From Rhodobacteraceae bacterium HLUCCO07 (lineage in GTDB: Bacteria > Pseudomonadota > Alphaproteobacteria > Rhodobacterales > Rhodobacteraceae): a DNA stretch of 64,000 nucleotides. A program made the position numbers and the translations under genes. Location of the stretch: contig LJSU01000018.1 in NCBI GenBank assembly GCA_001314705.1, forward strand, positions 120,308 to 184,307, written 5' to 3'. The notes beneath the pieces are model-generated. The model saw only the letters and a list, made by a program, of their open reading frames with translations, was not told the DNA's origin and did not search any database. Below, piece after piece: positions 15,355 through 24,712 of the stretch (position 1 is the stretch's first letter; each line of letters opens with the position of its first letter).

Positions 15355-16272
15355 TCAGCGCAGAAATCCATGATGCTCGATCACCGTCACGAGGTCTGAA
15401 ACCGATTGCTCAACCGTGCGCCCGGAGGTTTCGATCTGGGCCATTGCCTTTTCATAAAGCGGCTCTCGGCTCGACAGGATCGCTTCGAGTTGCTCCATTG
15501 CTTCGGCATTGCCTGCCATCGGGCGTTCATCGCCTTGCTCACGCACCCGGCTCATATGTTCCTCAGGCGAGGTTCGTATCCAGATCGTGTAAAAATGGTT
15601 GAGAAGAAGCTCAAATGTTTCCGGTTCGGCAACAATACCCCCCGCCACGGCAAGGATCAGCGTATCGTGTTTTTCGATCACGCGGCGCACCGCCTGCGCT
15701 TCAAGATTGCGGTAACCATCCTGCCCATAGAAGGCCATCACCTCGTCGATGGGCATGCCACTGTGATCCTCGATATCACGGTTCAACTCGACGAATGGAA
15801 CGCCCAGCGCCTCACCACCCAGCCGCCCCAATGTTGATTTTCCCGCCCCCCGCAATCCGATAAGGCAAACGCGTTGGGCGCGGCTGGTCATGCTTTCGGT
15901 GGTATTCAGCTTTTCGAGAACCGCTTGCTGTACGTCCGAATTCGCGACCCGAAACAAGCGCGCGACCCGCAGCGCATCCGAGGTCCACGGATCCTCCTCA
16001 CCGACCAGCCATTCGATACGGTGGTCGAGCGCCGTTGCAACACGCTGTAGCAAGCCGATCGAAATATTCCCCGCTCCGGCCTCAAGCTGCGCGAGATAGC
16101 GCGGCGAGACCCCAGACCTTTCCGACAGCACCCGGCGCGGAATACCCTTGCGCTCGCGGGCTCGGCGCACACGCTCACCGACGCGCCTGAGCAATGCATC
16201 GGCCGCGCAGTCCGCAAGGGTGTCGGTGTCGGGCTTTGCCACCTCACCCCTGAAATTGGTGATCTCGGTCAT
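15355..16272 (-). CDS. boxR: BoxR: XRE regulator fused to a shikimate-kinase-like effector domain
   Basis: A 305-residue transcriptional regulator of the BzdR/BoxR family. It has an XRE helix-turn-helix (about residues 32-92; RVRRARERKGIPRRVLSERS) and a C-terminal shikimate-kinase-like domain (about 133-305) with an intact P-loop, GLRGAGKST at 139-147, and an ELNRDIE segment. In Azoarcus, BzdR and BoxR repress benzoate genes and respond to benzoyl-CoA; by homology this should repress the box genes here. It is the last gene in the box direction. A TGCA-containing half-operator lies just upstream (16285-16298), so autoregulation is plausible. Some roles could overlap with a true shikimate kinase, but the HTH fusion argues against that. 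Confidence 0.9.
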   Translation of the reverse strand: MTEITNFRGEVAKPDTDTLADCAADALLRRVGERVRRARERKGIPRRVLSERSGVSPRYLAQLEAGAGNISIGLLQRVATALDHRIEWLVGEEDPWTSDALRVARLFRVANSDVQQAVLEKLNTTESMTSRAQRVCLIGLRGAGKSTLGRLGGEALGVPFVELNRDIEDHSGMPIDEVMAFYGQDGYRNLEAQAVRRVIEKHDTLILAVAGGIVAEPETFELLLNHFYTIWIRTSPEEHMSRVREQGDERPMAGNAEAMEQLEAILSSREPLYEKAMAQIETSGRTVEQSVSDLVTVIEHHGFLR

Positions 16273-16364: not shown

Positions 16365-16808
16365 TTATTCCGGCCCCCCGACCAACAGAGGTTCGACAAC
16401 CGCACGAATTTCTGGCGGTGCTGCGCGCGACGTGAACTCCTTCGCGACGATAAAAACACAGACGAACCGGCCCTCGAAGCAGAGTTTGCCATCCTGATAT
16501 CCCTCGACACGAAACTCGATCGACTTGGTGCCGAGCCGGGTCGGCGCGACCTTGCAGATCAGTCTGTGGCGCGGCGTGATCACATGCCGGAAATCCAGAC
16601 TCATATGCACGAACGGTGTGCCATAACCACGGTCCAGTTCCATCTGGAACCACCCGTCGCCATCAAGGTGATGCTCCCACCAGGCATTGATCGCGTCCAG
16701 CGCCCAGTTCGGGATGCGGCCCGTATAAGCGATGCGCGCCGGATCGCAGTCACCCCATGCGACGCGGATTTCGTGTTCAAAGGGCGGCAGGCCCGATTTC
16801 GTTTTCAT
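16365..16808 (-). CDS. Hotdog-fold acyl-CoA thioesterase of the box cluster
   Basis: A 147-residue 4-hydroxybenzoyl-CoA thioesterase-family protein. The characteristic N-terminal active-site segment is present (RVAWGDCDPARIAYTGR, with the catalytic Asp in GDCDP), as is a hotdog helix (WALDAINAWWEHHL). Its start lies two bases after the boxA stop, so it is in the same transcript. A role in hydrolysing dead-end or excess aromatic CoA esters to free CoA is inferred from context and family; the substrate could be benzoyl-CoA or a pathway intermediate. Confidence 0.87.
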   Translation of the reverse strand: MKTKSGLPPFEHEIRVAWGDCDPARIAYTGRIPNWALDAINAWWEHHLDGDGWFQMELDRGYGTPFVHMSLDFRHVITPRHRLICKVAPTRLGTKSIEFRVEGYQDGKLCFEGRFVCVFIVAKEFTSRAAPPEIRAVVEPLLVGGPE

Positions 16809-16810
16809 GC

Positions 16811-17992
16811 TTAGTAGGTTTCCACGTGATAGCGCCCTTCACTGCGCATCACGTCACGCAGGGTAGCCCAAGGTTGTCCAATGCTTTCGGCGATATTGGT
16901 CAGCGCGTGTTCGACACCATCCTCCATCCCCTTCAGGCCGCATATGTAGATATGCGTGGCAGGGTCCGTCAACATCTCGGCAACCGCTTCTTCGCGAGCC
17001 ATCATCCGATCTTGCACGTATTCCTTGGCCTGCCCATCCAGGCGGGAATAAACCAGTTCCTGCTTGAGCAGGTTTTCAGGCACCTTCTTGAGCGGTCCGA
17101 AATAGGGCAGGCTTTCGGGATTACGGGCTCCGAAAAACATCAGCATCCCGCCCGACTTGCCGCCAACCGCACGTTGACGGCGCATGGTGAAGGCCCGCAT
17201 CGGCGCGCTTCCAGTGCCGGTGCAGATCATCAGAAGCCGCGCCTCGGCATCGTCGGGCAACAGGAAGGTCGCCCCGAACGGCCCGGTCAAGTTCAGCTCG
17301 GCCCCCTTCTCGAGATCACATAGGTAATTCGAACACAGCCCATCCGGCTCCCGCTTCACGGTCAGCGAAATATTGTTGTAATTCGGTCGCTCGCCGTCGC
17401 GCGGGCTCGAAACGGAATAAAGTCGTGGCAGATGCGGCTTGCCGTTCTCGTCCTCACCCGGCGGGATGACACCCACGCTCTGCCCCTCCAGCACTGGAAA
17501 AGGCAGTCCCCCCATATCGAGGATGATATGGCGCACATCGTGCTCCGGGTCATCGGTCAGCCGGTAATTGCCCTGCACCTTCGCCACGGCCGGTTTTGCC
17601 AGTGTATAAAGGTTGATCGCGGGCCTGGCCGCCGATTTCGGCGCCACCGCCTTGCCCCCCGCACCGGCATGCGCTTCGGCCAGAAGCGCGGCCATCGCCT
17701 CGTCAAGGGCCTCCATCCCGGTTTCGGCCTCGCCCAGATCCTCCTGTGGCGGCAATTCGGACCAGCCGAACTGTTCCTCCAGCGAATAGGGCGTGTTCAC
17801 CACCCGCCACTCGTCGATCGAACCGGTAGGACAGACCGGAATGCAGTCCATACAGAAATTGCACTTGTCCGCATCCACCACGACATTCATGTCATCATGG
17901 GTGATCGCCTCGATCGGACAGGTCATCTCGCAGGTATAGCAGCGAATACAGATTTCCGGGTCGATGAGATGCTGTTTGACGGGTGTATTCAT
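16811..17992 (-). CDS. boxA: BoxA, reductase component of benzoyl-CoA 2,3-epoxidase
   Basis: NADPH-dependent FAD/iron-sulfur reductase that delivers electrons to BoxB. The ORF reaches 18130 but the real start is the ATG at 17992, overlapping the preceding small gene by four bases; this gives 393 residues. Two ferredoxin-type [4Fe-4S] motifs are at C15-C18-C21-C25 (CIRCYTCEMTCP) and C44-C47-C50-C54 (CNFCMDCIPVCP). A ferredoxin-NADP reductase module follows: LYSVSSPRDGE for FAD, the NADP-binding CTGTGSAPMRAF and the C-terminal SEGRYHVETY. An Ala/Glu-rich linker joins the two halves. It is encoded with boxB and boxC, as in known box clusters. Confidence 0.95.
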   Translation of the reverse strand: MNTPVKQHLIDPEICIRCYTCEMTCPIEAITHDDMNVVVDADKCNFCMDCIPVCPTGSIDEWRVVNTPYSLEEQFGWSELPPQEDLGEAETGMEALDEAMAALLAEAHAGAGGKAVAPKSAARPAINLYTLAKPAVAKVQGNYRLTDDPEHDVRHIILDMGGLPFPVLEGQSVGVIPPGEDENGKPHLPRLYSVSSPRDGERPNYNNISLTVKREPDGLCSNYLCDLEKGAELNLTGPFGATFLLPDDAEARLLMICTGTGSAPMRAFTMRRQRAVGGKSGGMLMFFGARNPESLPYFGPLKKVPENLLKQELVYSRLDGQAKEYVQDRMMAREEAVAEMLTDPATHIYICGLKGMEDGVEHALTNIAESIGQPWATLRDVMRSEGRYHVETY

Positions 17993-18171
17993 GCCGACTC
18001 GCGCGTACTCTTCAGGATCAGTTCGGGCAAAGTCATCATCTCGATAAGCTCCTTGCAAAGCCCGCGGCAATTCTTGCAACCGACGCAAGGAGTGCCCAGT
18101 TGGGTCACCTTGGCCGCCAAAGCCCTGCAACGTTCGGTTTCGGCCTTGCTTCTGGTGATGCTGATGGTCAT
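17989..18171 (-). CDS. 60-aa Cys-rich protein with a ferredoxin-like CxxCxxCxxxC motif
   Basis: A 60-residue protein between boxB and boxA. I chose the ATG at 18171 (GGGAG about ten bases upstream) over the ORF start at 18189. It has five cysteines; four form C29-x2-C32-x2-C35-x3-C39 (CVGCKNCRGLC), the spacing of one [4Fe-4S] cluster of a bacterial ferredoxin, without the usual following Pro. The rest is charged and probably helical, with no signal peptide. Its stop overlaps the boxA start (ATGA), so translation is coupled. A small electron carrier or an iron-sulfur accessory factor for BoxA/BoxB is inferred. I do not recognise a named family. Confidence 0.75.
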   Translation of the reverse strand: MTISITRSKAETERCRALAAKVTQLGTPCVGCKNCRGLCKELIEMMTLPELILKSTRESA

Positions 18172-18220: not shown

Positions 18221-18252
18221 TCATGCTGCCTTGCGTCAGATCAAGCCATGGG

Positions 18253-19704
18253 TCATGCCATGTGCAGTTTCACATATTCGAAATCGCCCGGTTTGTTGTC
18301 GATCCCGACCTTGGGTGGCGCGATCCAACTGGCGTATTTGCCCGGTTCATAAACCGGCTTCATCAGGGACTGGATGTAGTCACCATCGGCATGGCTGGGC
18401 AGCCATTTCTTCATGCCCTCATCATATTCGGCGCCCGTGATGAACCGGCCTTCCGGATCGATCAGCTTGTCAGCGAAGACGCCAATCTTGCGATGGAATG
18501 CCTCGTGCGGCAGCTTCAGCTGGAAATCGATCCCGGCCTTCTCGATGATCTTGTTCCAGCGGCCCACGCCACCTGCCGCATCGCGGGTATAGTCGTCGCG
18601 CAGCCGCATGTTGATCGCGGTGAGCGCGGGCACCTCTTTCTGCACCACCTTGCCATCGACGATATCCCACACCGTATAGGTGTCGCCGGTCAGCTTGTGA
18701 TCATCGGTCAGCCGGTTTTCCTGATAGCGTCCCTTGATCCCCGCATTGAACGCATTGGCGGCATTGGTCGAAACCTCCTGTCCGAAAAGATCAAGCGAAA
18801 GCGTGTAATGCAGGTTCAGCTTCTTCTGGATCAGCGGCAGGTCGATGACGCCCAGCGCACGGATGCGGTCGGTGTCATAAGGATCGTCGATCCCGTTTTC
18901 CTTCATCACCTCGCAGGTGCGCTGAATCGTCCGGCCCACGCCGGTCTCTCCCACGAACATGTGGTGCGCTTCTTCGGTCAGCATGAAGCGGCAGGTGCGC
19001 GACAACGGATCGAACCCGGACTGCGCCAGTGATTCCAACTGCATCTTGCCATCGCGGTCGGTGAAATATGTGAACATGAAGAATGACAGCCAATCCGGCG
19101 TTTCCTCGTTGAACGCGCCCAGCATCCGCGGAGCCTCTTCACTGCCCGACTGGCGCCGCAACAGATCATCGGCCTCTTCCCGGCCATCGCGACCGAAATA
19201 TTTGTGCAGCAGATAGACCATCGCCCACAGGTGGCGGCCCTCCTCGACGTTCACCTGGAAAAGGTTGCGCATGTCGTAAAGCGACGGCGCCGTCAGCGCC
19301 AGCAGGCGTTGCTGCTCGACCGATGCGGGCTCGGTATCGCCCTGGATCACGATCAGCCGCTTGAGCATGTTGCGATACTCGCCCGGCACCTCCTGCCACG
19401 CCGGCTGACCCGCATGTTCGCCGCACGGGATACGACGATCTTCGACCTGCGGCGCCAGCAGAACGCCCCAGCGGTATTCCGGCATCTTCACATAGTCGAA
19501 CTTGGCCCAACCCTTGGGATCGACCGAAACGGCGGTGCGTAGATAGACCAGCGATTCCTGGAAATTCTGGGGGATGAGCTTGTTCCACCAGTCGATATAG
19601 CCCGGGTGCCATTTCTCAAGCGCCTTGAGCACCTTCTTGTCCGAACTCAGCCCCACATTGTTGGGGATCTGGGTATCGTAACTCACATTGATCACGTCGA
19701 GCAT
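18253..19704 (-). CDS. boxB: BoxB, benzoyl-CoA 2,3-epoxidase oxygenase subunit
   Basis: Di-iron oxygenase that converts benzoyl-CoA to 2,3-epoxybenzoyl-CoA using electrons from BoxA. The start is the ATG at 19704, preceded by AGGAGG at six bases, giving 483 residues. Two ExxH iron-binding motifs are visible: E155-GR-H158 in NVEEGRHLW and E245-AH-H248 in LTEEAHHMF. By the spacing known for Azoarcus BoxB, E125 and D216 would complete the site. The length matches the family. It follows boxC after 90 bases and precedes the Cys-rich 60-residue gene and boxA. Confidence 0.96.
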   Translation of the reverse strand: MLDVINVSYDTQIPNNVGLSSDKKVLKALEKWHPGYIDWWNKLIPQNFQESLVYLRTAVSVDPKGWAKFDYVKMPEYRWGVLLAPQVEDRRIPCGEHAGQPAWQEVPGEYRNMLKRLIVIQGDTEPASVEQQRLLALTAPSLYDMRNLFQVNVEEGRHLWAMVYLLHKYFGRDGREEADDLLRRQSGSEEAPRMLGAFNEETPDWLSFFMFTYFTDRDGKMQLESLAQSGFDPLSRTCRFMLTEEAHHMFVGETGVGRTIQRTCEVMKENGIDDPYDTDRIRALGVIDLPLIQKKLNLHYTLSLDLFGQEVSTNAANAFNAGIKGRYQENRLTDDHKLTGDTYTVWDIVDGKVVQKEVPALTAINMRLRDDYTRDAAGGVGRWNKIIEKAGIDFQLKLPHEAFHRKIGVFADKLIDPEGRFITGAEYDEGMKKWLPSHADGDYIQSLMKPVYEPGKYASWIAPPKVGIDNKPGDFEYVKLHMA

Positions 19705-19794
19705 ATCATTCCTCCTTGTCGCCGGGTTGGCGGGATGAATATGCCCCACGCCCGGATTTGCATCGGGTCGGGACTCAGCCCGGCCCGCCCTCCA

Positions 19795-21456
19795 TCACAC
19801 ACGCTCCATGTTGAAGCCACCGCGCACACCGCTGCCATACCGCTGCAAGGCCCCGTCCGGGCCGACCGCGTTCGGCCGGTTGAAAATCCAGTTCTGCCAC
19901 GCGGTCAGACGGCCAAAGATGCGCGTCTCCATCGTCTCGGGCCCGGCGAAACGCAGATTCGCCTCCATTCCCGTCATGGCGTCGGGGCTAAAGCTCGCAC
20001 GCTCCTCCATGAAGATGCGGATCTCGTCCTCCCAGTCGATATCGTCGAGGATATAGGTCACCAACCCCAGCTCGTCCGCCTCTTCGGCCTCCAGGGCTTC
20101 GCCGATCTGGGCGCGTGCCGCCTCGACCGATGCCTCGTCGCCGATAAACCGCGTCGCGAGCCGGCTCAGGTCATTGCCCATCGGATATTGTCCGAAATTG
20201 CTCTGCGAGAGCGTCACCGTCGCCATCGGGCGATTGTCGCCCTCGAACTCGTCCTCCATCATGTAGGACCGATCGACCGCGAAAAGAAGCTCGGCCAGAA
20301 CCCCCGCGAAACACGATCCGTGCTCGACAAGCGCAACAAGGCTGCGCGAGGTCACGTCGACCCGCTTCAACACCCGCTTCCACAATTGCAGAACCTCGTT
20401 GGCGAGCCAGTGATCGCGATTGTCCAGCAGCAATGCCTCATGCGCCATGACCTGCGCAGGATCGCCCTGGGTGCGGATCACCCACAGTCCCAACTCCATT
20501 TCGTTGAGGCGCAGGTGCAGGATCGCATCCTCCAACTCGCGTGCCGCGCGCAGCATCCACGCCTCGGCCCCCTGCGCGATGAAAGCCTCCATATCCGCTG
20601 GCGCGCCACCCTCCGGCCCCTTCACCGTGATCGTGGCCTTGCGCCCCTTGCGGTCAAGTTCGACCTCGACAGCCGAATAGGTCAACGCATCCGCCCCGAT
20701 CTCACGCTTGAGCGGGGTCAGTTCGATCCCCTTCGCGTCATCCGGCCGGGACGATGCGGCGGCGAATTCGCGCGCCCGCTCGGCCACCGTCTCGTCAAAA
20801 CGCGAATTCGGCACCACTTCGTCAACCAGCTTCCATTCCTTGGCGCGCTTGCCCCGGATACCCTCTTCCATGGCACAGAACACATCGGCCCGGTCGCGCC
20901 GCATCTGCCGCTTGTCCGTCACCCGCGTCAGACCGCCGGTACCCGGCAACACCGCGAGAAGCGGGACCTCGGGCAGCGCCACGTTCGAGGTGCTGTCATC
21001 GGTGAGCATGATGTAGTTGCAGGCCAGTGCCAACTCGTATCCGCCCCCGGCGCACGACCCCTTGATGGCAGCAATGTATTTCTGCCCGCTATCGGCCTCG
21101 GCCGCCTCATAGGTGTTGCGGGTCTCGTTGGTGAACTTGCAGAAATTCACCTTGTGGGAATGTGCCGCCCCGCCCAGCATACGGATATTCGCCCCGGCGC
21201 AGAACACGTTGTCCTTGCCCGACCGCATCACCACAACCTTGACCTCGGGATGCTCGAAACGCATCCGCTGCACGATATCGTTCAACTCGATATCCACGCC
21301 CAGGTCATAGGAATTGAGCTTGAGCTGATAGCCTTCGAAGAGCCCCCCATCCTCGTCCACGTCCATGTAGAGATTGGCAACGGGTCCGTCATACTCCACC
21401 CGCCAATGGCGGTATTTCGACGGATCGGTCTGAAAGTCGATCATCTTCTCGGTCAT
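19795..21456 (-). CDS. boxC: BoxC, benzoyl-CoA-dihydrodiol lyase (ring-cleaving)
   Basis: Cleaves and hydrolyses 2,3-epoxybenzoyl-CoA to 3,4-dehydroadipyl-CoA semialdehyde and formate. The 553-residue protein belongs to the crotonase superfamily in a long, two-part form. The crotonase oxyanion segments are seen as SGKDNVFCAGANIRML and GSCAGGGYELALACNY, with a second crotonase-like half around SLVALVEHGSCFAGVLAELLFAVD. The length is typical of BoxC. The upstream gap of 108 bases is AT-rich and contains a candidate BoxR operator, so boxC may head an internal transcript for boxC-boxB-orf60-boxA. Confidence 0.96.
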   Translation of the reverse strand: MTEKMIDFQTDPSKYRHWRVEYDGPVANLYMDVDEDGGLFEGYQLKLNSYDLGVDIELNDIVQRMRFEHPEVKVVVMRSGKDNVFCAGANIRMLGGAAHSHKVNFCKFTNETRNTYEAAEADSGQKYIAAIKGSCAGGGYELALACNYIMLTDDSTSNVALPEVPLLAVLPGTGGLTRVTDKRQMRRDRADVFCAMEEGIRGKRAKEWKLVDEVVPNSRFDETVAERAREFAAASSRPDDAKGIELTPLKREIGADALTYSAVEVELDRKGRKATITVKGPEGGAPADMEAFIAQGAEAWMLRAARELEDAILHLRLNEMELGLWVIRTQGDPAQVMAHEALLLDNRDHWLANEVLQLWKRVLKRVDVTSRSLVALVEHGSCFAGVLAELLFAVDRSYMMEDEFEGDNRPMATVTLSQSNFGQYPMGNDLSRLATRFIGDEASVEAARAQIGEALEAEEADELGLVTYILDDIDWEDEIRIFMEERASFSPDAMTGMEANLRFAGPETMETRIFGRLTAWQNWIFNRPNAVGPDGALQRYGSGVRGGFNMERV

Positions 21457-21563: not shown

Positions 21564-21582
21564 TTTATACTTCCCGTATAAA
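21564..21582. repeat. Perfect 7-bp palindrome TTTATAC-N5-GTATAAA
   Basis: An inverted repeat with arms TTTATAC and GTATAAA around a 5-base spacer sits at the DUF309 stop codon, between two candidate BoxR operators. It could be a protein-binding site or a weak hairpin. The function is unknown. Confidence 0.45.
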
Positions 21583-22074
21583 CTTGGAAAATCGCGCACA
21601 TGATTTATGCATAATATTGCACATCCTCGAATCGCCATCACCCTGTTCATCACGCAAGGCCATCGCCGCCGCGCGCATTTCCGCACCATGAATGCCCATC
21701 ACCGGCCCCGCGGTTTCATCGCACAACGCCTCGACCTGATCGGCCAGCCGCGCGGCCGCACCCGGCCACCCCATCCTCAGCTTCAGTGCCCCGTTGGCCA
21801 GTTGGATCACCGCCTGTGCCATACGCCGCTCAGCCGAATTGGGCGGCAACGCCATCCAGACCGGCTCGATCACCTCATGCGCCTCCCAGAAGTACCCATT
21901 TGCCAGGAACCAGAGGCCGCCGCGCCACGCATCCGACCCGGCCAGCGCTTTGGCGCTCATCCCCGGCCGCGCCGTCGCGCGCAGACGGTCGAACGCCCCT
22001 TCGGGATGTCGCGGTCCCTGCCCCGGAACATAGGCCCGGTCCGGTAGCGCGATATCTGCCACCACCTTCACCAT
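21565..22074 (-). CDS. DUF309-family protein in the box operon
   Basis: A 169-residue protein with the DUF309 signature (GYFWEAHEVIEPVWMALPP, about residues 60-78, and a QAVIQLANGALKLRMG segment). No enzymatic activity is established for the family. It overlaps the upstream hydrolase gene by seven bases and so is co-transcribed with it and the benzoate-CoA ligase. The last codons are AT-rich and contain candidate regulatory sites for boxC. A role in benzoate metabolism is suggested only by position. Confidence 0.85.
   Translation of the reverse strand: MVKVVADIALPDRAYVPGQGPRHPEGAFDRLRATARPGMSAKALAGSDAWRGGLWFLANGYFWEAHEVIEPVWMALPPNSAERRMAQAVIQLANGALKLRMGWPGAAARLADQVEALCDETAGPVMGIHGAEMRAAAMALRDEQGDGDSRMCNIMHKSCARFSKFIREV
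21608..21621 (-). promoter_or_regulatory. Candidate BoxR operator inside the 3' end of the DUF309 gene
   Basis: TGCA-TAATAT-TGCA, a perfect pair of TGCA arms separated by six bases, lies within the last codons of the DUF309 gene, 78 bases (centre to centre) upstream of the other boxC site. With that site and the palindrome between them it forms an AT-rich regulatory stretch in an otherwise GC-rich region. Confidence 0.5.
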
Positions 22075-22856
22075 CCGACCCGCCGCGACAGGAACTCACC
22101 CATTGCCGCCAGAACCACCTCCGCTTGGTCGAATTGCGGCGCATGCCCGCAATCGGGCAGGATCAACCGATCCAATGGGACGCGCGCTCGCTTCTCGATC
22201 TCCTCGATCTGCGCCAATGTACCATATTCGTCCCCCTCACCCTGAACAGCGAGGATCGGCACACCGATACCGTCGATCGCATCGGCCACGTTCCAGTCTC
22301 GAAACCCCGCGGCCAGCCACGCATCGTTCCAACCACGAAAGGCATTGTCCGGGTCACGGTGATATTTCGCCATCCGCTGGCGCAAACCGCCCGCATCATA
22401 GGCGCACTTGGCCTCGGCAATTGCGGCAAGACCCAAGGGCTCGGTAAAGAAATGCGGCGCCATCAGGATCACGCCCTTTACCCGCGAATCCTCCACTTTC
22501 CCCGCGTGAATCGCAGCGATCGTCGCCCCGTCGCTATGCCCCATCAGGACGACCCGTTCCGCGCCCACCGCGTCCAGAACCCGCGGCAACACCTCACAGG
22601 CTTCGCGCGTCATATAATGCAGCGGTCGGGGCAGCGGCACACCGTCCGACTGCCCGTATCCAGCCCGCGAATAGGCAAAGATCCCCAGCCCCGTTACCGC
22701 CGCCAGACGCTCCGGGAAATCCCGCCACAACGCGACACAGCCCAGCCCCTCGTGCAGCAGCACGATCACGGGGCCATCACGCGGGCCGATCATCCGGTAT
22801 TCCAACCAATAACCATCGACCTCGATGGCCCCGGCACCTTCCCCGCGGGCAAGCAT
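22068..22856 (-). CDS. Alpha/beta hydrolase of the box operon
   Basis: A 262-residue alpha/beta-hydrolase-fold enzyme. The start at 22856 lies two bases after the ligase stop; the upstream extension of the ORF overlaps the ligase gene and was removed. The oxyanion segment is LLHEGLGC, the nucleophile elbow is MGHSDG (Ser) and the C-terminal GHAPQFDQ supplies the catalytic His; an acidic residue in the segment ILAVQGEGDEYG is probably the third member. The closest general pattern is C-C hydrolases, lactonases and esterases. Tight coupling to benzoate-CoA ligase suggests it acts on a benzoate precursor ester or a pathway intermediate; the substrate is unknown. Confidence 0.85.
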   Translation of the reverse strand: MLARGEGAGAIEVDGYWLEYRMIGPRDGPVIVLLHEGLGCVALWRDFPERLAAVTGLGIFAYSRAGYGQSDGVPLPRPLHYMTREACEVLPRVLDAVGAERVVLMGHSDGATIAAIHAGKVEDSRVKGVILMAPHFFTEPLGLAAIAEAKCAYDAGGLRQRMAKYHRDPDNAFRGWNDAWLAAGFRDWNVADAIDGIGVPILAVQGEGDEYGTLAQIEEIEKRARVPLDRLILPDCGHAPQFDQAEVVLAAMGEFLSRRVGW

Positions 22857-22858
22857 CG

Positions 22859-24400
22859 TCACGCGTCCTTGCGCAACTTGAACCGCTGGATCTTGCCCGT
22901 CGGGGTCTTCGGCAACTCGTCCACCACCTCGATCCAGCGGGGATATTTCCATTTGCCGATGCGCTCCTTGACGAATTCTTTCAACTCCGCCAGAGGCGCC
23001 TCGTCCGCGCCGCCCTTGAGCACGACAAAGGCCTTGGGCTTTTCCAGTTCCTCCGCGTCGCGCCAGGCAACCACCGCCGCTTCCAGAACCTTGGGATGCG
23101 ACATCAGCGCCTGTTCCACCTCGAACGGGCTGACCCAGATGCCCGAAACCTTGAACATGTCATCTGTGCGGCCACAGTAAATGAAACGTCCCGCCTCGTT
23201 GCGCTCGTACTTGTCGCCTGTGCGGGTCCATTCCCCCTCGAAGGTCGCCCGGCTCTTGCCGCGCTGGTTCCAGTATCCTTCCGCTGCCGAGGCGCCCCGC
23301 ACCAGAAGCTCGCCCACCTCGCGAGGGCCGACCTCTTCGCCCGCCTCATCGACGAGCCTCACATCGTATCCCGGCACCGCCGTCCCCGAGGTGCCGTATT
23401 CGATATCCCCGGGCTTGTTGGACAGAAAGATGTGCAGCATCTCGGTCGATCCTACGCCGTCCATGATGTCGGTCCCGCACATCGCCTGCCATTTCCGCCC
23501 GATCTCGGCCGGAAGAGCCTCGCCGGCGGAAATCGAGGTGCGCAACGGCGCATCGGGGCATGTTCCACCCAACTCCCAATGATGCAGCAGCGCAGCATAG
23601 AGCGTCGGCACCCCGCAAAACACCGTCGGCTGCTCGTCTCGCAGAATGGCCGACACCGACTCGGGCGTCGGTCGCCCGCTGAACAGGATCGTCGTCGCCC
23701 CCACCGACATCGGGAATGTCATCGCGTTGCCCAGCCCATAGGCAAAGAAGATCTTCGCCGCCGAGAACACCACGTCATCCTCACGTATCTGCAAGACCTG
23801 CGCGCCATAGCTGTCCGACGTGGCCCTGAGCGCCCCATGCACATGCTTGACCCCCTTGGGCCGCCCGGTCGAGCCACTGGAGTAGAGCCAGAAGGCGATT
23901 TCATCCTCGCAGGCCACCACCGGCGCCAAAGACTCGGCCCCCTCCATGAAATCTTCGAAAGAGGTCGTGCCTTCGGGCGAATCGCCCCCCACCACGACCA
24001 CAGTCCGGATGAACGGGTTGAGGGGCAGTGCGGGTTTGATCGTTTCGTAAAGTTCGGCCGACACGAACAGCGCCGAGGCGCGGCTGTCATGGAAAATCTC
24101 GTCGTAGACCGACGCCGCCAACAAGGTGTTGAGCGGGATCGGCACCACCCCCGCCCGGATCGCCCCCCAGAACGCCACGGGCAAATCATTGGTATCAAGC
24201 ATCAGGAGAAGAATGCGCTCCTCACGGCGGATGCCCGCCTTGCCCAACGCACCGGCAAAGCGCGCGCTCTGATCGGCAAGCCGGCCGTAACTTAATTCGC
24301 GTTTCGCACCCGCCGTCTCTCGGAACACGGGCTTGTCGGCCCGCCCCTCGGCAATATGGCGATCAACGAAATAGATTGCTGCATTCTGGTTGTCAGACAT
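22859..24400 (-). CDS. bclA: Benzoate-CoA ligase
   Basis: Activates benzoate with ATP and CoA to benzoyl-CoA, the first step of the box pathway. The ORF extends to 24580, but the ATG at 24400 with GGAGG seven bases upstream gives the normal 513 residues. Adenylation motifs are visible: P-loop YSSGSTGRPKGVKH (173-186), GVGSTEMLH, GEWTRTGDKY, GRTDDMFKVSGIWVSPFEVE and the C-terminal KTPTGKIQRFKL with the catalytic Lys. The pattern matches benzoate/4-hydroxybenzoate-CoA ligases. It is the promoter-proximal gene of the operon, with two operator-like repeats overlapping its predicted promoter. Confidence 0.94.
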   Translation of the reverse strand: MSDNQNAAIYFVDRHIAEGRADKPVFRETAGAKRELSYGRLADQSARFAGALGKAGIRREERILLLMLDTNDLPVAFWGAIRAGVVPIPLNTLLAASVYDEIFHDSRASALFVSAELYETIKPALPLNPFIRTVVVVGGDSPEGTTSFEDFMEGAESLAPVVACEDEIAFWLYSSGSTGRPKGVKHVHGALRATSDSYGAQVLQIREDDVVFSAAKIFFAYGLGNAMTFPMSVGATTILFSGRPTPESVSAILRDEQPTVFCGVPTLYAALLHHWELGGTCPDAPLRTSISAGEALPAEIGRKWQAMCGTDIMDGVGSTEMLHIFLSNKPGDIEYGTSGTAVPGYDVRLVDEAGEEVGPREVGELLVRGASAAEGYWNQRGKSRATFEGEWTRTGDKYERNEAGRFIYCGRTDDMFKVSGIWVSPFEVEQALMSHPKVLEAAVVAWRDAEELEKPKAFVVLKGGADEAPLAELKEFVKERIGKWKYPRWIEVVDELPKTPTGKIQRFKLRKDA

Positions 24401-24477
24401 CCGGTTTCCTCCCTGTCCTGCCGACCGCCTGTCCCGCCCCCTCCCGGACGGTGCCGCATCACCGCGACTCGCGATTA

Positions 24478-24520
24478 TGCTATATAATGCACATCGCCTT
24501 GATGCGTGCAAGATAATGCG
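24478..24520 (-). promoter_or_regulatory. bclA promoter overlapped by two candidate BoxR operators
   Basis: On the minus strand, TTGCAC (-35; plus coordinates 24506-24511) and TTATAT (-10; 24482-24487) are 18 bases apart, about 80-110 bases upstream of the bclA start. Two repeats overlap them: TGCA-AGATAA-TGCG at 24507-24520 over the -35 and TGCT-ATATAA-TGCA at 24478-24491 over the -10, 29 bases centre to centre. This is the layout expected for repression by BoxR. The rest of the 364-base gap 24401-24764 holds only a LexA-like box near the divergent SOS gene. Confidence 0.6.
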
Positions 24521-24712
24521 CACGCCGAGCGGCGACAGGCAGAATGTGTCGGCCTGCAAGCCGGATTGCCCCGGTTTCATTGTTCAATGTGAATTTGCGC
24601 AATCCCGATGCACGGCGCCGCTGAAATCAGCCTACGAGAGGCATCCCGGCACCAGGACAAATGGACGCCAAAGCAAATGCAGCATGCGCACGACCCTTCT
24701 CAGATCACGGTT

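Follow-up and report, generated by a model that had tools for sequence, protein, structure and literature searches.

A small four-cysteine protein encoded between boxB and boxA is a lineage-restricted and probably redox-active accessory of the Rhodobacteraceae Box system

To our knowledge, the components of the Box pathway described so far are BoxA, BoxB and BoxC only. What, then, is the function of the small four-cysteine protein whose gene lies between boxB and boxA in Rhodobacteraceae bacterium HLUCCO07? The window, i.e. the whole stretch of 64,000 nucleotides analysed here (assembly GCA_001314705.1, contig LJSU01000018.1, positions 120,308 to 184,307), contains a complete box cluster, all genes of which are located on one strand together with the small gene (Table 1). 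Their order is ligase, alpha/beta hydrolase, DUF309, boxC, boxB, small gene, boxA, thioesterase and BoxR-like regulator; the small gene, with boxB upstream of it, is a member of a box operon that includes boxA, boxB and boxC. BoxA and BoxB have been described as an oxygenase complex (PMC4498308). The two iron-sulfur clusters ascribed to BoxA in the original prediction agree with the window's BoxA, in which both Fer4 motifs are intact.

Table 1. Features of the box cluster in the window, and flavodoxin genes found behind boxB in three other genomes
Feature	Position	Strand	Details
BoxR-like regulator	15355..16272	-	HTH and shikimate-kinase-like domain
4HBT-type thioesterase	16365..16808	-	
boxA, benzoyl-CoA epoxidase reductase	16811..17992	-	393 aa; TIGR03224, 531 bits; both Fer4 motifs intact
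Small Cys4 protein gene	17989..18171	-	60 aa, ATG start, TGA stop; translated ORF
C29-x2-C32-x2-C35-x3-C39 motif	18055..18087	-	CVGCKNCRGLC; translation and alignment
FNR-type palindrome (candidate)	18231..18244	-	TTGATCTGACGCAA; two mismatches to TTGATN4ATCAA
boxB, benzoyl-CoA 2,3-epoxidase (diiron oxygenase)	18253..19749	-	TIGR03225, 923 bits
boxC, 2,3-epoxybenzoyl-CoA dihydrolase	19795..21456	-	
DUF309 protein	21565..22074	-	common to most box clusters of Rhodobacteraceae
Alpha/beta hydrolase	22068..22952	-	
Benzoate-CoA ligase family protein	22859..24580	-	
Flavodoxin gene, G056	L095:1468-1929		directly after boxB
Flavodoxin gene, G241	L094:1635-2099		directly after boxB
Flavodoxin gene, G140	L091:1662-2120		directly after boxB

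Sequence and conservation of the small gene

The small gene had been proposed to be a 60-residue ORF with a C-x2-C-x2-C-x3-C pattern and a stop codon that overlaps the start of boxA. Translation of 17989-18171 on the minus strand, which gives MTISITRSKAETERCRALAAKVTQLGTPCVGCKNCRGLCKELIEMMTLPELILKSTRESA followed by the stop codon, bears out the ORF and its pattern, and the overlap was confirmed as well: the TGA shares 4 nt with the boxA ATG, as ATGA. A fifth cysteine, C15, varies among relatives in the alignment. The closest named match is an 88% identical copy on a Rhodobacteraceae MAG contig.

The sample consisted of 298 Rhodobacteraceae genomes, 63 of which contain boxB. The gene next 3' of boxB is a motif-bearing small ORF in 42 of these 63 genomes, and a 43rd copy (G009, locus L059) is broken by a frameshift. 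Homologues were counted as ORFs of 45–75 aa with the start codon picked by rule. The length of the gap 3' of boxB is bimodal, at least 190 nt with the small gene and at most 117 nt without it; the sole exception is a gap of 209 nt with no recognisable copy (G110). The ATGA overlap is present in 29 of the 39 clusters in which boxA is adjacent, and nine copies stop 6–333 nt ahead of boxA with no overlap.

In the 36-row alignment (member lengths of 45–67 aa), C29, C32, C35, G37, C39 and P49 are conserved in every row and L53 is nearly invariant; the core of the alignment reads GPCVGCxxCxGLCxxLI. One copy (G017) keeps the cysteines and is divergent elsewhere. Since the search of the boxB gaps itself required the Cys pattern, the conservation argument rests on G37 and P49, the invariance of which lies outside that requirement, and on a pattern-free tblastn search, which recovered nearly the same set of copies. 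Pairwise dN/dS values within the window's genus are 0.14–0.16 (Fisher p 1e-6 to 1e-7). Thus, despite the absence of a database family, the invariant residues and the dN/dS values demonstrate that the gene is under purifying selection as a protein. Together with the homologues that occupy the same slot in relatives, the invariant non-Cys positions and the low dN/dS identify the ORF as a genuine protein gene, beyond chance. The original prediction had made its survival dependent on the cysteines being conserved in relatives, and all four are kept.

Resemblance to ferredoxins and half-ferredoxins

No assignable relative of the small protein was found in Pfam, NCBIfam, the PDB sequences or a plasmid collection. 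Individual members make weak contacts with Fer4-type Pfam families (best E of 0.0019; Fer4_2 in 11 of 36), none of which reaches the cut-off, and the window protein has no Fer4 match at E<1. The best PDB profile matches are the PsaC two-cluster ferredoxin chains (E of 6e-5, driven by the motif). Similar to these 2[4Fe-4S] ferredoxins, the small protein contains C-x2-C-x2-C-x3-C with a hydrophobic residue and a Gly between the first two cysteines, but unlike them, it carries one motif instead of two and, in a weak model, shows helices instead of strands. The AlphaFold2 model, computed for two sequences, is weak (pLDDT of 58) and displays helices around the Cys loop with no strands; a Foldseek search with this low-confidence model found no fold match in the PDB (E of 8.9). 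A two-cluster ferredoxin of the Fer4 type was considered on the basis of the motif and rejected, as there is one motif and no conserved Pro after C39. Given the weak helical model and the lack of a fold match, we do not file the small protein as a ferredoxin. The likeness to BoxA consists of the shared operon, an Fe-S motif of the same type and the BoxB neighbour; BoxA differs in its size, two clusters and FAD/NADPH domains, and no resemblance beyond the motif was seen.

In classical ferredoxins, the first three cysteines of C-x2-C-x2-C-x3-C ligate one cluster and the fourth cysteine ligates the other. The motif had been taken as the ligand spacing of a single [4Fe-4S] cluster; by the classical pattern, the spacing stands but the ligation of one cluster does not. 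Because of this split, one motif can yield two clusters in a homodimer. The small protein would most likely bind [4Fe-4S] via its single motif and may dimerise with itself to reconstitute a ferredoxin-like site with two clusters. Alternatively, a monomer could hold one cluster on all four cysteines with an altered geometry.

Construction of two clusters as a homodimer has been described for designed semidoxins and, in part, for the natural PD1 of Thermoanaerobacter (PMC12648291). The small protein resembles them in being a very small, stand-alone protein with a single four-Cys motif, and as a homodimer it would accommodate two clusters. Proteins of the PD1 type measure about 30 aa, have a predicted beta-alpha-beta fold, 2x(beta-alpha-beta) in the homodimer, and are nearly confined to anaerobes (PMC12648291), whereas the small protein is 45–67 aa long, carries an N-terminal helix-like extension, displays no strands in its low-confidence model and belongs to an oxygen-using pathway.

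Distribution and upstream sites

The presence of the small gene is closely tied to boxB: it is found in 43 of 63 Rhodobacteraceae genomes with boxB (the frameshifted copy counted) versus 5 of 235 without it (p of 9e-31). In the split clusters of G081 and G214, the small gene remains behind boxB, and boxA and the ligase gene are located on another contig. About one third of the Rhodobacteraceae boxB genomes have no small gene, and their BoxA is mostly normal otherwise. In three clusters of this kind (L084, L099 and L103), the second Fe-S motif of BoxA is without its second cysteine (CDHEGSC, CDHEMAC and CDGEMSC, respectively), and the second cluster of these proteins may be altered.

Direct inspection of 29 boxB loci fetched from a class-wide sample (one gene-less Rhodobacteraceae locus and 28 loci from other families) found no copy. 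Outside Rhodobacteraceae, a class-wide profile search, the first filter of which scores some candidates only so that rare distant copies could escape, gave just short, weak, motif-driven matches. The proposal to look for the peptide in other boxB–boxA gaps was therefore rewarded within the family (42 of 63 genomes) and not outside it, and the small gene is not a general constituent of box operons. In many alphaproteobacteria of other families, boxB is not followed by a boxA within the next 1.5 kb (L132, L133, L137–L140, L142–L150 and others), and one genome (G654) has no boxA over the cut-off anywhere.

On the BoxB tree, the presence pattern requires about 13 changes, at least five of them on well supported branches. 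It is most simply explained by one early gain in Rhodobacteraceae followed by repeated loss, although the tree cannot separate gain from loss. Such repeated loss suggests that the small protein is accessory to the Box system. Two other associations were considered and rejected. The DUF309 gene often co-occurs with the small gene and was a candidate for an obligate partner, but four small-gene genomes are without it and several genomes without the small gene still have it. BoxA residues F46 and C47 gave suggestive counts for a match to the presence of the small protein, but a paired comparison that took the tree into account was unable to attain significance.

The window contains a candidate FNR-type palindrome between the boxB stop and the small gene, 59 nt upstream of the ATG of the latter; taken alone, it is within the chance expectation for the window. 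Sites with at most one mismatch are located 54–74 nt upstream of the small gene in 6 of 52 cases versus 0.36 expected (p of 2e-6). Counted by lineage, these sites occur in five lineages (G194 + G940, G269, G070, G282 and G189; p of 4e-5), where they lie between boxB and the small gene or between TRAP genes and the small gene. A two-mismatch form is present in G166 and in the window's genus (three genomes), and in most Rhodobacteraceae members with the small gene no such upstream site was found. The G269 site is identical to the FnrL site published for uspA of R. sphaeroides, and the half-sites in the window are those of the R. sphaeroides hemN FnrL sequence TTGCGCAGGATCAA (PMC4634722). FnrL is encoded in the window's genome (NF045989, 462 bits versus a cut-off of 300). 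As the window's own match does not exceed chance, we infer FnrL control of its gene from the relatives.

Possible roles of the small protein

The small protein probably belongs to the Box system as an accessory redox component. Our best reading of the sequences is a half-ferredoxin-like [4Fe-4S] protein that would support BoxB at low oxygen, and an auxiliary electron carrier to BoxB under these conditions is the most likely of the roles considered, even if it has to be put forward tentatively. Such a protein would supply low-potential electrons to the diiron oxygenase under scarce oxygen, alongside the BoxA reductase; BoxB as its client, the direction of electron flow and the control by FnrL are all putative.

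Three genomes (G056, G140 and G241) bear on this role. They belong to three genera and are not neighbours on the BoxB tree, their clusters contain neither boxA nor the small gene, and a flavodoxin gene (PF00258) is located between boxB and the thioesterase gene (Table 1); none of the three genomes yielded a boxA above the cut-off. Flavodoxins are the proteins that usually substitute for ferredoxins. Replacement of an Fe-S module by a flavodoxin is in line with what is expected if the module carries electrons. The flavodoxin fills the slot of boxA and the small gene and is presumably an electron donor, but it is a flavin protein without an iron-sulfur cluster, unlike the predicted small Fe-S protein. 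As it replaces boxA too, the contribution of the small protein cannot be separated from that of boxA by this swap. The BoxB–flavodoxin arrangement is possibly unrecorded.

Several findings speak against a carrier. The gene is missing from every boxB locus examined outside Rhodobacteraceae and from about one third of those inside, BoxA already has two clusters, copies persist without BoxB, and the poor AlphaFold model suggests helices instead of the beta-alpha-beta fold of ferredoxins. The original prediction of an extra carrier between BoxA and BoxB is thus retained in part: there is a conserved Cys4 protein whose gene is linked to boxB and, in most cases, to boxA by translational coupling, and a redox role would fit the replacement of boxA and the small gene by a flavodoxin in three genera. 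An essential BoxA-to-BoxB carrier is not supported, as a third of the boxB genomes do without the gene and it survives in genomes without BoxB.

A maturation or protection factor, which would provide BoxB or BoxA with iron or Fe-S or guard it and carry no catalytic electrons, appears rather unlikely. It would act as has been suggested for PaaD, the product of a small accessory gene in the phenylacetyl-CoA epoxidase operon, where its neighbours encode a diiron epoxidase of CoA esters and the corresponding reductase; PaaD is needed in vivo and dispensable in vitro for PaaABCE (PMC4498308). The location in an oxygenase operon, the accessory character of a gene that is often lost and yet stays with boxB, and FNR-type sites, which suit iron-sulfur work, would all agree with this role. 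However, PaaD is a DUF59/SufT-like protein, to which the small protein is unrelated in sequence (no DUF59 match), no likeness to known assembly proteins was found in Pfam and NCBIfam, a motif of the ferredoxin type would be more usual in an electron-transfer protein, and the gene is retained in genomes without Box enzymes.

These last copies are an argument for a third and still less likely role, that of a small Fe-S protein (redox or sensing) which is controlled by FnrL, acts independently of Box and resides in the box operon by linkage. An intact small gene is found in six genomes with no BoxB over the cut-off (G194, G940, G107, G943, G269 and G218), and BoxA is also absent from all four of them that were tested. 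In all but the last of the six, the small gene follows TRAP transporter genes of the kind that border box clusters in other genomes, and an AlkZ-like gene, also a box-cluster flank, is located beyond it in three of these five (L062, L063 and L239). Judging by such neighbours, the five loci (L062, L063, L066, L239 and L241) appear to be the remains of lost box clusters. One of these genomes, G269, which has neither boxA nor boxB, retains the DUF309 gene beside the small gene. A near-perfect FNR site is present upstream in G194, G940 and G269. G194 and G940 share the intergenic sequence, which argues for one common arrangement; 25 of 30 core residues are identical between their copies, which is beyond neutrality (simulated p of 0.00015), but the overall dN/dS of 0.59 (Fisher p of 0.08) points to relaxed selection. 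Furthermore, 98% of the boxB-less Rhodobacteraceae genomes are without the small gene, the G240 copy (G240:C1:270491-270661) contains an internal stop codon, and the box loss may be recent. The BoxB-less copies may serve another client or may be in slow decay; both fit.

One last alternative, a small protein that binds zinc or has a structural role, or else a short ORF maintained chiefly to couple the translation of boxA to boxB, is very improbable: the ATGA overlap in most clusters would suit coupling, but coupling alone needs neither purifying selection nor invariant Cys, Gly and Pro and does not fit the nine copies that end ahead of boxA, and four cysteines within 11 residues are unusual for a zinc ribbon.

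The small protein is a previously undescribed, lineage-restricted component of the Rhodobacteraceae box operon. The auxiliary electron carrier could be part of a larger picture, in which a family of natural half-ferredoxins in oxygen-using bacteria, switched on by FnrL under low oxygen, provides a second, oxygen-adapted electron supply for BoxB, is replaced by flavodoxin in other lineages and serves another client in some lineages after Box loss; in this full form, we consider it doubtful. If true, a fourth Fe-S-type component of the Box system would reopen the question of how BoxB obtains its electrons in vivo, and a stand-alone half-ferredoxin outside strict anaerobes would bear on the evolution of ferredoxins from a duplicated half.
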